From Treponema sp. (GTDB taxonomy: Bacteria; Spirochaetota; Spirochaetia; Treponematales; Breznakiellaceae): a stretch of 34,111 nucleotides of DNA. Under the pieces are notes generated by a model. That model was not told where the DNA came from. It saw nothing but the letters and a program-made list of their open reading frames with translations, and made no database searches. Location of the stretch: the NCBI GenBank assembly GCA_009781635.1, contig WQXU01000026.1:1-34111 (forward strand), written 5' to 3'. The position numbers and the translations under genes were made by a program. Positions 12,399 through 25,569 of this stretch are shown here, one piece after another. The stretch's first letter is position 1. Each line of letters begins with the position of its first letter.

Positions 12399-13301
12399 AT
12401 GAGCGACGTAAAGAAAATACTTATTGTGGACGACGAAAAAATTAACATTATGGCGCTGGCTCAATTTCTAAAACCCAAATATGACATTATCATCGCTACA
12501 GACGGCGCATCTGCGCTGGAAGCTGCCGCAAAACACCTTCCGGATATAATTTTACTGGATATAATCATGCCTGACATGAACGGTTATGAGGTTCTTATTA
12601 AATTAAAAGATTCCTCCAATACCATGGCTATACCGATTATTTTTTTGACCGGACTTAACAATGCAGAGGACGAGGAAAAGGGCCTATCGCTCGGCGCTGT
12701 TGATTATATTACAAAGCCGTTTAATCAAACTATTGTAAAAGCAAGAATCGGGACGCATTTAAAGATGGCGGATTATATAAAAACAATCGAGAAACTATGC
12801 ATGCTCGATGCGCTTACAGGCCTGCCAAACAGGCGGGGTTTTGACATTCGCGTCGAAGCTGAATGGGGACGCGCTTTCAGAGAAAAAAAATCCCTTGGCC
12901 TTATCATGATGGATTTGGATAATTTTAAAAAATACAATGACACATACGGGCATCCGCAAGGTGATGTCTTATTGCAGACAATTGCAGAAATCCTGAATAA
13001 TACCCTTCAGAGAGCATCGGATGTTGCGGTAAGATGGGGCGGAGAAGAGTTCTGTGTTTTACTGCCGGACACAGACATTAAAGGTACATACAATATTGCA
13101 GAACAAATACGGATAAACGTAATGAAGACCAACATTCAAATTTCCAACGAAAAAGGCACGACCGTAACAATCAGCCTTGGCGCTCACTCAAAAATTCCCG
13201 GCACAAACGATTTAATCGCCGATTATATATCTGAAGTTGACCAATTACTCTATACCGCAAAGAAGAACGGCAAAAATATGACATGCACTTTGTCAGGCTG
13301 A
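12399..13301 (+). CDS. Response regulator with GGDEF diguanylate cyclase output
   Basis: The 300-residue protein has an N-terminal receiver (DD at 11-12, phospho-Asp D54 in IILLDIIMPDMNG, ITKPF near residue 108) joined by a helix to a GGDEF domain. The catalytic motif is intact as GGEEF (214-218), and the allosteric product-binding I-site RxxD is present as RASD (205-208). It should therefore make c-di-GMP from two GTP when phosphorylated and be inhibited by its own product, as in PleD/WspR-type proteins. The start ATG has GGAGAAGG just upstream and lies 12 bases after the hybrid kinase, so the two form an operon. In spirochaetes c-di-GMP commonly affects motility and surface properties; the target here is unknown. 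Confidence 0.93.
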   Translation: MSDVKKILIVDDEKINIMALAQFLKPKYDIIIATDGASALEAAAKHLPDIILLDIIMPDMNGYEVLIKLKDSSNTMAIPIIFLTGLNNAEDEEKGLSLGAVDYITKPFNQTIVKARIGTHLKMADYIKTIEKLCMLDALTGLPNRRGFDIRVEAEWGRAFREKKSLGLIMMDLDNFKKYNDTYGHPQGDVLLQTIAEILNNTLQRASDVAVRWGGEEFCVLLPDTDIKGTYNIAEQIRINVMKTNIQISNEKGTTVTISLGAHSKIPGTNDLIADYISEVDQLLYTAKKNGKNMTCTLSG

Positions 13302-13368
13302 GATATTGACTTAAAACAGAAACCACTACCACTTATAGCGTTATACTGCGTTAATACACGCTACATCT

Positions 13369-13475
13369 AGTGTCATGTAATATTCGGTTACCAAAATAGC
13401 ATTATGCGTTAATTCCTTATTACATAAGGAATTAACTTAACATATAATTGTGTCATTTGAATATTACATGACACT
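13369..13475. repeat. 107-bp palindromic repeat element, copy 1
   Basis: The element is bounded by a perfect 17-bp inverted repeat (AGTGTCATGTAATATTC and its complement). It holds a central hairpin at 13408-13436: GTTAATTCCTTA, a five-base loop, then TAAGGAATTAAC. A further GTGTCAT at 13450-13456 repeats the left end and can pair with ATGACAC at the right end. Copy 2 at 23274-23380 has exactly the same length and about 83 percent identity by eye. It is not coding. It is flanked by TA on the left and TT on the right. It sits between the diguanylate cyclase and grpE. Confidence 0.85.
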
Positions 13476-13502
13476 TGTGTCTATATTTATATCGGAATTT
13501 CC

Positions 13503-13583: not shown

Positions 13584-14192
13584 ATGTCAAGACATGAATC
13601 TCAAAACGAACAGCCTGATGTTGTACCGTCAGAGGAGGGCTTATCTCAGGCTGATAATGGCGCTGCGGAGCCTGGAGTAAACGAACAGGAAAACACAGCC
13701 ACTCCGGAAGAAAAAATAACTGAGCTGGAAATCAGACTTGCAGATAAACACGATCAGCTTCTCCGGAAAGCGGCGGAATTTGAGAATTTCCGCAAGAGAA
13801 TAAATCAGGAAAAAATCAGCGCAATTGAATACGCAAACCAGAGCCTGCTTCTGGACATCATCCCGGTAATTGACGATTTTGAAAGGGCCATTCAGGCCGG
13901 GGAAAGCGGCATACAAACATGTTCTGCAGAATACACAAGCTTTCTGGAAGGAATCAAAATGATTGAGAAACGCCTAGTCAATCAGCTTGAGTCAAAATGG
14001 GGGCTTAAACGTTTCAATTCCGCAGGAGAACTATTCGATCCAAACCTGCACGAAGCGCTGATGATGGAAAAATCTCCCGATGTAAATGAAGCAACAGTAC
14101 AGGATGATTTAATAAAAGGATACATGTTAAAAGAAAGAGTTATCCGGGCAGCAAAGGTAAAAGTTCTCATGCCCGATACAGAGAAAGCATAA
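13584..14192 (+). CDS. grpE: Nucleotide exchange factor GrpE
   Basis: GrpE releases ADP from DnaK. The protein is 202 residues from the ATG at 13584 (MSRHES). An acidic, disordered N-terminal stretch is followed by the long dimerising helix (EEKITELEIRLADKHDQLLRKAAEFENFRKRINQEK, about 42-80) and a C-terminal beta domain with FDPNLHEALMMEKSPDVNEATVQDDLIKGYMLKERVIRAAKVKV, the family signature. An upstream in-frame ATG-less extension could be read from 13503, but its residues (MTQTQFFCIFYIRREFYS) are unlike GrpE and overlap the presumed promoter. Ribosome binding site support for 13584 is weak. It lies 51 bases before dnaK, the usual heat-shock order. Confidence 0.93.
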   Translation: MSRHESQNEQPDVVPSEEGLSQADNGAAEPGVNEQENTATPEEKITELEIRLADKHDQLLRKAAEFENFRKRINQEKISAIEYANQSLLLDIIPVIDDFERAIQAGESGIQTCSAEYTSFLEGIKMIEKRLVNQLESKWGLKRFNSAGELFDPNLHEALMMEKSPDVNEATVQDDLIKGYMLKERVIRAAKVKVLMPDTEKA

Positions 14193-22000: not shown

Positions 22001-23178
22001 CCGCCCAGTTCGTTTGCTATGTCGTAATCGTACAGACTGTAAGCAGAGGCGGCAGCTTCGGGATTTCCTGTCCACTGCTTTATAGTTTTGCTGGCCTGAC
22101 TTCTCTCCCATACGCCGATTAACCAAAGACCTGTAAAACCGCGGCGGGCAAGCTCATCAAGTTCTTCATCCGGAATTTGATCAAGGCGGACAATTTCCTT
22201 GTTGTATTTTTGCGATAATTGAAAAAGCCATACAAGCGTGCTCTTTGCCATCAATACAGTTTTGGGCATCCAGTCCTGATCGGGACTGAATCTTTCATAT
22301 TCATCGAGGCCGGCAAAAGTCAGCACTTCGCTCGGACCGGGGCCAAAGAAAACGGATTTATCTTCCTCGTTTATTACATCAAGACTCATTAGAAGACGCG
22401 ACATGAATTTTGAAATTAAAAGCCCCCAGTGTTTTCGCATATAATCAAGCTGTCCTAAAAGAGAATCTGGACACGCAAGGGCAGGAGAGCGAAGGAAGTC
22501 CCAAAGATTCATTCCATCCGGGCCGAAAGACGGCATGTCTTTTAAGTGGGCTTTTAATTCCTCAATTGCATCCGGATAGACAGTTGTTTTGGACAGAATG
22601 CTGTCGTCAAACATAAACTTAAATGGTTTAAAAGCAGGGTTTAAATTTGCAAGAGACAGGAGCATTGTTTCTTCGATGGAAAGAGCGCGGCAGCTTTCAC
22701 CTTCTTCCTTACTCTTTAAATACTGCTCAACATTTTTCTCGCCCCTGTACACAGAGCGCGGCGGAAACTGTGCGGAAAATCCTTTTAATAAGCCGCCTGT
22801 TCTGTCTTCACCAAGATTGGTTTCCAGCCTTTCAAGCGCTGTATCAAAAATATCGCCCTGAACTTCCTCACGGTAGAGGGATACGACATAGTGAAGGATT
22901 TCATCAATAAGGCCCATGGCATAGAGCTGGCCGGCTTTAATATAACGCTCAGGATGAGCGGGATCCTGCTTCAGGTTGAATTTATTCGCAAGCTCCCGGC
23001 ACTGTTTAAGGTCGGCAAAAACTACATTTCCGGTTAATGAAAAAAGGCTGTCTCTTAATTCATATTCTATGCGGATATTGCTGTTTATGTGGAATTCCAT
23101 GCGTGTCTTGCGATTTTTCGCCCATGATACCTTGCCTGCTTTTTCAAGTTTGGTTAGTTTAAGGGATATTTTATTCAT
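19063..23178 (-). CDS. GH13 (alpha-amylase family) protein with a histone H1-like Lys/Ala-rich tail
   Basis: The protein has 1371 residues and no signal peptide, so it is probably cytoplasmic. GH13 landmarks are visible: region I SDMVPNHTG (D414), region II FSIVRFDAAMTLAKR (nucleophile D534), region III LLLAEAFWMMEG (acid/base E599), and region IV in an atypical form, FMNNPDED, in place of the usual NHD. A catalytic barrel thus lies at about 370-740, between a long N-terminal domain and a helical C-terminal region (about 900-1200). From about residue 1203 to the end it becomes a Lys/Ala/Pro/Thr tail resembling histone H1 or bacterial KA-repeat proteins, with tandem 26-residue repeats. The start ATG has AAAGGAG five bases upstream and a good promoter. 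The substrate is unknown; glycogen or another alpha-glucan is the natural guess. sppA is translationally coupled downstream. Confidence 0.85.
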   Translation of the reverse strand: MNKISLKLTKLEKAGKVSWAKNRKTRMEFHINSNIRIEYELRDSLFSLTGNVVFADLKQCRELANKFNLKQDPAHPERYIKAGQLYAMGLIDEILHYVVSLYREEVQGDIFDTALERLETNLGEDRTGGLLKGFSAQFPPRSVYRGEKNVEQYLKSKEEGESCRALSIEETMLLSLANLNPAFKPFKFMFDDSILSKTTVYPDAIEELKAHLKDMPSFGPDGMNLWDFLRSPALACPDSLLGQLDYMRKHWGLLISKFMSRLLMSLDVINEEDKSVFFGPGPSEVLTFAGLDEYERFSPDQDWMPKTVLMAKSTLVWLFQLSQKYNKEIVRLDQIPDEELDELARRGFTGLWLIGVWERSQASKTIKQWTGNPEAAASAYSLYDYDIANELGGWGALCNLRDRCMHRGIRLGSDMVPNHTGLDSKWIVEHPDRFLQLQHPPFPTYNYNCGNLSGRGDITVQIEEHYFSRSDAAVVFKRADNRTGETRYIYHGNDGTSMPWNDTAQIDFLNPEAREAVIRTIIGVCQQFSIVRFDAAMTLAKRHIQRLWYPAPGTGGAIASRAEHAISTEEFNRRIPNEFWREVVDRCAVEAPNTLLLAEAFWMMEGYFVRTLGMHRVYNSAFMNMLKNEENDKYRATIKNTMEFDPEILKRFVNFMNNPDEDTAVAQFGKGDKYFGICTLLVTMPGLPMFGHGQIDGFEEKYGMEYRRSYKDEKPDGYLVDRHEREIFPLMKKRSLFSGSANFRIYDLYCNGGSVNENVFAYSNRTWIGAREEKALIFYNNSYYETSGWIKVSDPPVPVPAGTGNDGGNTRRDSLSEALALHGEAQYFTLLREQISNLWFIRSSKAISEDGFFIGLRGYETQVYLDVCEVEDDAKGRWARLNNDLNGRGVPCPHAAIKDIFLGDLYYRFMEILNPEFIIGLKESINKKSFADSFKTPVEEFIKTASFFITGANGSWDPWTAKDQAKNTDIKFTPVKTDAIWKEFEMFINRFKSITDTLKKTKSPLLDQITKCMAERQMLYAVALSYGVLSLLRLIIGRLQNGKGATGLHAADLAFDHWDLGRKLRQTYKNFGASDVEAWQITDLLKASLGRTNVPHSWDRPAKKDISGLSPSEFAALIIEENYLSEDFRRILGINFFNDVMWFNKEGFENAVYYSSFFFMMEGSIKMPVEERINRISGIYDALTKAEKKSEYRFDNLLDILTAKPKAGTAKKKTSGLKVPAEKAPVTKKAAPKIKKAEKKADAVKKAEPAAKTKKSAPKTKQVEKKASAVKKTKPAAKTKKSAPKTKQVEKKVSAVKKTEPATKAKKAAPKAKATVKKAQPKKAAAKKTTAKKAVSKKAAPKTTSVTVKKSTVKKAKAAAKKTGTRGKTKK
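19274..19507 (-). repeat. 78-bp tandem repeat encoding 26-residue Lys/Ala units
   Basis: Three units begin at 19274, 19352 and 19430, exactly 78 bases apart. The first two are nearly identical and the third is more diverged. Each encodes a unit of the type VKKxxPAAKTKKSAPKTKQVEKK inside the H1-like tail. The in-frame period means copy number could change by recombination without breaking the gene. Confidence 0.85.
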
Positions 23179-23231: not shown

Positions 23232-23273
23232 TAAGAAAGGCATTTGATATACACCGCGTTATTTCACATCACT

Positions 23274-23380
23274 AGTGTCCTGTAATATTCGGTTTGTAAA
23301 ATAACAAAATGCGTTAAATCCTTACTTCGCAAGGATTTAACTTAACAGACCATTGTGTCATTTGAATATTACAGAACACT
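23274..23380. repeat. 107-bp palindromic repeat element, copy 2
   Basis: The terminal 17-bp inverted repeats (AGTGTCCTGTAATATTC against AGTGTTCTGTAATATTC) match at 16 of 17 positions. The central hairpin is at 23313-23341: GTTAAATCCTT, a seven-base loop, then AAGGATTTAAC. Compared with copy 1, the hairpin has a T-A to A-T pair swap and the outer arm an A-T to C-G swap, so pairing is kept while sequence changes. TA dinucleotides lie at both borders (23273-23274 and 23380-23381). It lies between the GH13 promoter and the toxin-antitoxin promoter. Confidence 0.85.
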
Positions 23381-23453
23381 ATAGTAAAAATATGAAACAA
23401 ATTTATAAAAAAATTGTTTAATATTTAACCGCGCAGTATTAAAATCAGCATAC

Positions 23454-25530: not shown

Positions 25531-25554
25531 CCTTAATCAGAGCTTACCGGTTAT
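25508..25554. terminator. Large hairpin between convergent genes, possible bidirectional terminator
   Basis: ATAACCGGTA (25508-25517) pairs perfectly with TACCGGTTAT (25545-25554), and inside it CTGATT (25522-25527) pairs with AATCAG (25535-25540). It lies at the end of arfB and faces the META lipoprotein gene from the other strand. There is no T-run, so its termination efficiency is uncertain. It directly touches the parS site. Confidence 0.5.
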
Positions 25555-25569
25555 GTTTCACGTGAAACA
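25554..25569. promoter_or_regulatory. parS centromere site (ParB binding)
   Basis: TGTTTCACGTGAAACA is a perfect 16-bp palindrome and equals the bacterial parS consensus (TGTTNCACGTGAAACA). ParB loads here and spreads to organise and segregate the origin region with ParA and SMC. It lies between convergent genes, about 7 kb from the candidate oriC at 32499-32725, the expected distance. I found no second copy in the window. Confidence 0.93.

Follow-up and report, generated by a model that had tools for sequence, protein, structure and literature searches.

A probable IS630-family MITE of treponemes and a palindrome that it has in common with other genomic sites

Background

Two described bacterial repeats come closest to the element reported here. 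RUP of pneumococcus is about 107 bp long, lies between genes in about 100 copies in one genome, uses a TA target and shares its ends with IS630-Spn1 (PMC2229807). The Correia elements (NEMIS) of Neisseria are MITEs of 105-155 bp with TA ends, and their 155-bp form binds IHF in vitro (PMC2229807).

We analysed 34,111 nucleotides of DNA from Treponema sp. (contig WQXU01000026.1 of assembly GCA_009781635.1), called the window throughout, in which a first-pass annotation made from the letters alone had pointed out a 107-bp sequence present twice. Compared by architecture only, this element is like RUP in its size, intergenic siting, copy number in its richest genome, TA target and IS630-family ends; it differs in that its target is narrowed to CTAG and that a conserved 25-bp palindrome occupies its centre, whereas no internal DNA motif has been reported for RUP. 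The Correia elements, like ours, are MITEs with TA ends that carry a site for a host factor (IHF there, a putative site here), but the treponeme site is a perfect palindrome that is common to the dnaA region, integrase junctions, sigma-54 promoters and a second type of MITE. To our knowledge, IHF sites are not palindromic. With insertion sequences (ISs) of the IS630/Tc1-mariner group, such as ISY100, the element has in common a TA target, terminal inverted repeats and, in its source elements, a DDE_3 transposase; unlike them it has no gene and would need a transposase made elsewhere. Among open-licence papers, we found nothing on the MITE or the palindrome, on this combination of features, or on one site common to the dnaA region, integrases, sigma-54 promoters and two MITE types.

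The duplicated sequence

The two 107-bp sequences, at 13369-13475 and 23274-23380, were confirmed, with 18 differences between them. Both are intergenic, as had been claimed. Copy 1 lies between a gene for a GGDEF response regulator, which ends at 13301, and grpE (ATG at 13584), with grpE-dnaK-dnaJ starting about 110 bp downstream of it (GrpE and HSP70 by Pfam, dnaJ by sequence). The neighbours of copy 2 are a divergent gene that starts at 23178 and, on the other side, a small pair of genes, one of them with a PIN domain. The copies do not belong to a larger duplication: their flanks are unrelated, and further copies exist elsewhere.

We prefer to define the mobile unit as 105 bp rather than 107 bp long (Table 1), because the outer A or T belongs to the TA target. 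The terminal inverted repeats, described in the first-pass annotation as 17 bp long, are exact in copy 1, but one end position of copy 2 is unpaired (column 5/101). The paired changes noted between the copies are real: A-T became C-G at columns 6/100, and T-A became A-T at columns 44/62. An internal GTGTCAT, which had been thought to offer an alternative fold with the right end, is indeed present; however, only about half of the copies retain it, and many others have CCGTCAT, so that such a fold is not conserved.

Table 1. Positions of the MITE copies and their parts in the window
Feature	Position	Strand	Remarks
MITE copy 1	13370..13474	+	105 bp, GTGTCATG...CATGACAC
Left TA of C-TA target, copy 1	13368..13369	.	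right side is TT, 13475-13476
Left terminal inverted repeat, copy 1	13370..13385	+	
Right terminal inverted repeat, copy 1	13459..13474	-	
Shared palindrome, copy 1	13410..13434	.	TAATTCCTTA-TTACA-TAAGGAATTA; 0 mismatches to motif; arms extend to 13408-13436
MITE copy 2	23275..23379	+	105 bp
Left TA of C-TA target, copy 2	23273..23274	.	
Right TA, copy 2	23380..23381	.	
Left terminal inverted repeat, copy 2	23275..23290	+	
Right terminal inverted repeat, copy 2	23364..23379	-	
Shared palindrome, copy 2	23315..23339	.	TAAATCCTTA-CTTCG-CAAGGATTTA; 3 mismatches to motif

Copies, ends and target site

The window's genome (2.77 Mb, 99% complete) contains eight near-full copies at 82-100% identity, along with internally deleted forms of 38 bp (C31:23636) and 25 bp (C7:41151). 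Full copies are also found in several other members of the genus, and a sister species (G004) has about 100. A search for the ends in G004 returned 96 and 104 matches on the two strands, that is, 200 for the true ends, versus 0 for reversed ends used as a control. Viral contigs searched for the MITE ends had none.

Across these copies the boundaries are sharp, and compensatory changes are present. The element has the form GTGTC...GACAC, is 103-105 bp long and is inserted at C^TA^G, flanked by TA left and right. When each element is counted once, TA is found at the left of 53 of 61 elements, at the right of 45 and on both sides of 39; C occupies position -3 in 56 and G position +3 in 47 of the 61, and there is no constraint farther out. 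From these flank statistics we infer that TA is duplicated upon insertion. Because CTAG appears on both flanks, we considered a 4-bp CTAG duplication of the IS5 type, which is ruled out by elements with T-TA...TA-A flanks (for example, L096), where the outer bases mirror each other and do not form a repeat. These elements also show that the terminal G and C are part of the mobile unit and that what is duplicated is TA rather than CTAG. The two sides are not equally regular: TG replaces TA on the right flank of 12 of the 61 elements, and on the left flank of only 3.

Relation to IS630-type elements

A DDE_3 search of the window's own genome found no transposase. Related genomes do have DDE_3 (IS630-type) transposase genes, with fragments that match Pfam DDE_3. 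Most 3' ends of these relatives' elements read ...AGAACAC or ...GGACAC, or close variants of these, immediately before TAG, and terminal repeats of the form GTGTYC... beside TAG are common to them and the MITE. For example, the complete element L369 (1135 bp) runs from GTGTCCTGTAAAAAACAG, preceded by CTA, to TTTTTTACACCACAC, followed by TAG, and a second complete element, L371 (about 1280 bp), has matching ends next to CTA and TAG. Among the relatives' elements we found no intact IS carrying every base of the MITE ends; the best match is a remnant, L171, whose right end is identical to that of the MITE at 24 of 28 positions, a stretch to which the subterminal ATTGTGT belongs. The palindrome was absent from the three source ISs that we checked.

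Since its ends are those of DDE_3 elements, the MITE appears to be a non-autonomous derivative of the IS630 family. It is short and non-coding, occurs in several dispersed copies with unrelated flanks, has terminal inverted repeats in common with an IS that encodes a DDE_3 transposase, and has a TA target duplication as judged from the flanks of the 61 elements and from adjacent copies in G004 that are separated by about one TA. On this evidence from sequence comparison, the repeat is almost certainly an IS630-family MITE. The first-pass annotation had suggested a MITE moved by a TA-duplicating enzyme of the IS630/Tc1 kind, and the many copies, the sharp TA-flanked ends and the DDE_3 relatives all support that suggestion. 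Movement would account for the copy number, the divergent flanks and the ends. A transposase made elsewhere would recognize the 16-bp ends (GTGTYCTGTNNTATTC), excise the element and insert it at a TA within CTAG, leaving TA on both sides. The MITE is now non-autonomous and, because no IS630-type transposase was found in the window's genome, probably inactive there.

The palindrome inside and outside the MITE

At the centre of the MITE lies a 25-bp palindrome, TAATTCCTTA-N5-TAAGGAATTA, which has two matches in the window versus 0.01 expected. A scan of 84,980 genomes returned at least 118 stretches; the matches listed contain 119 sites, come almost only from Treponema and Spirochaetaceae, and yield proportions that are not to be read as frequencies.

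One recurrent location is the region upstream of dnaA. The palindrome is present there with at most three mismatches in 24 of the 27 genus members with enough upstream sequence, at a distance of 109-232 bp, mostly 127-146 bp before the start. As a control, 2 of 1080 dinucleotide-resampled sequences had a match with at most three mismatches; resampling preserves dinucleotide composition and not the relatedness of the species, and the 24 cases are not independent. At L357, DnaA boxes accompany the palindrome in the region that separates dnaN from dnaA. The site is not universal: it is absent upstream of dnaA in G028, in G029 and in G004, the most MITE-rich species. Three assemblies (G015, G034 and G003) gave two dnaA matches each, perhaps because of contamination.

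A second location is the 3' end of tRNA genes. Among the matches listed, 36 of the 119 sites are found 2-8 bp after a tRNA 3' end; in viral contigs, 4 of 12 palindrome sites likewise abut tRNA 3' ends. These solo palindromes directly follow tRNAs of many isotypes, and in many cases the next gene encodes a tyrosine integrase (Pfam Phage_integrase). In the window's genome, a 394-aa tyrosine integrase is preceded by AACCTACAA / TTGTAGGTT repeats with two degenerate palindromes among them, at G000:C49:276-388 (L011).

Ten solo sites, from the listed matches and the window's genome, are 15-48 bp from an exact sigma-54 promoter, TGGCAC-N5-TTGCW, a place that a sigma-54 enhancer (UAS) ahead of a -24/-12 promoter might take. 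The genes behind these promoters encode glutamine synthetase III (the sites L252 and L323), sigma-70 family proteins (L026 by Pfam, the others by sequence) and Hsp20-like proteins (by sequence). We saw no sigma-54 promoter beside the palindromes near dnaA, near integrase genes or within MITEs; the sites are therefore perhaps not all of one function, and the palindrome may serve more than one. It also occurs in a second type of repeat, about 130-150 bp long with CAGGGC terminal inverted repeats, which holds two copies of it. Repeats of this second type, MITE-like with CAGGGCCAGCGC ends and two palindromes each, are present at L257, L271, L301, L363, L340, L287 and L359.

These sites bear on whether the centre of a plain IS630 MITE might be nothing but DNA-hairpin ballast, and the sites elsewhere leftover pieces of MITEs. 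The internally deleted derivatives make such debris possible. Against this, the solo palindromes lack the MITE end sequence, recur in set positions (before dnaA, immediately behind tRNAs of many isotypes, ahead of sigma-54 promoters) and have a counterpart inside the unrelated CAGGGC-ended repeat, and we consider the explanation unlikely. Outer inverted repeats were found around only 5 of 54 solo palindromes, little above shuffled sequences.

Slightly less likely still, in our judgment, is that the tyrosine recombinases of tRNA-integrated elements use the palindrome as a core or arm site, which the MITE would carry as a recombination site. Its two inverted arms of 10-12 bp around a variable 5-bp spacer, and its nearness to tRNA ends (2-8 bp) and to an adjoining integrase gene, would suit such a site. 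However, partial tRNA repeats at L190, L214 and L215 suggest that the crossover takes place inside the tRNA, and the motif also occurs, with no integrase, at dnaA and sigma-54 promoters.

Two other identities, a LexA box and an integron attC site, seem unlikely. The neighbours read at non-MITE sites in the window's genome (dnaA, a sigma factor, an integrase, rny and purH) include no DNA-repair genes, and the palindrome arms do not fit the attC core by eye.

DNA or RNA

In 41 aligned MITE copies, both helices covary, with 14 pairs double-changed, a level reached by none of 500 shuffles. The central helix has 37 double-changed cells versus 4 wobble cells. RNA helices usually pass through G-U pairs. 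The scarcity of G-U intermediates and the symmetric changes in the arms thus favour a DNA palindrome over an RNA hairpin; hairpin-templated correction could likewise give symmetric changes.

We therefore regard as improbable an element that acts as RNA, in which a transcribed double hairpin would serve as a terminator or as a processing or stability element for the flanking mRNAs. Stable predicted folds (-33 to -41 kcal/mol) and the covariation of the stems speak for it, but besides the rarity of G-U intermediates, the region of copy 1 has no terminator (a G+C-rich stem and then a T-run), the whole window has no Rfam match, and the palindrome is also present at places (among DnaA boxes, in front of sigma-54 promoters) that make a role as RNA unlikely. 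The central hairpin seen in the first-pass annotation accordingly finds no support as part of a conserved RNA double hairpin.

It is very improbable that the palindrome is parS or another segregation site spread by the MITE: it is near dnaA in most genus members, but it does not match the parS consensus TGTTTCACGTGAAACA, an exact canonical parS exists separately in the window, and a centromere would hardly be tolerated in about 100 dispersed copies, the number in G004. The canonical parS is at 25554-25569; the end of the window that carries dnaA is about 8.5 kb away.

A candidate host-protein site

An IS630-family MITE with a separate candidate site for a host protein at its centre is, overall, the explanation that we hold to be quite probable. 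As to the palindrome itself, we lean, by a little, toward a putative site, bound by a dimeric DNA-binding protein of the host, that mobile elements have repeatedly picked up, a reading that draws on sequence patterns and would explain the conserved arms, the variable spacer, the symmetric changes and the mixed locations. The centre of the MITE would then be a separate module, a 25-bp DNA palindrome that treponemes retain elsewhere, and its putative binder would be a global regulator or a nucleoid factor. Each insertion would add a site, and so may tie the mobility of the element or the expression of its neighbours to that protein.

More tentatively, and with rather more doubt than belief, we propose a hitherto undescribed global treponemal DNA-binding protein. 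Its putative site would be found upstream of dnaA, at sigma-54 promoters of stress and nitrogen genes and next to integrase genes, and would have been adopted independently by at least two MITE types and many integrative elements; mobile elements would be timed by one host regulator and would also rewire it.

The MITE adds a spirochaete example, probably from termite-gut spirochaetes, to an established class, and the IS family that is its source has been identified. Of greater consequence is the shared palindrome, which points toward an as yet unnamed DNA-binding factor of treponemes with links to the dnaA region, to promoters of stress and nitrogen genes and to integrases, and which suggests that unrelated mobile elements have captured one host site repeatedly. 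It offers a marker for finding the putative regulon and raises the question of what binds it.

Placement of copies within genomes

Three of the eight copies in the window's genome (those at 13370 and 23275 of the window and at G000:C7:109141) are within about 25 kb of the presumed origin, at dnaA, where contigs C26 and C7 appear to meet. Such clustering was not obvious on the dnaA contigs of other species. On contigs C141, C52 and C106 of G004, adjacent copies follow one another with a period of about 105 bp and 2 bp between them, as if new insertions enter the TA of older ones.
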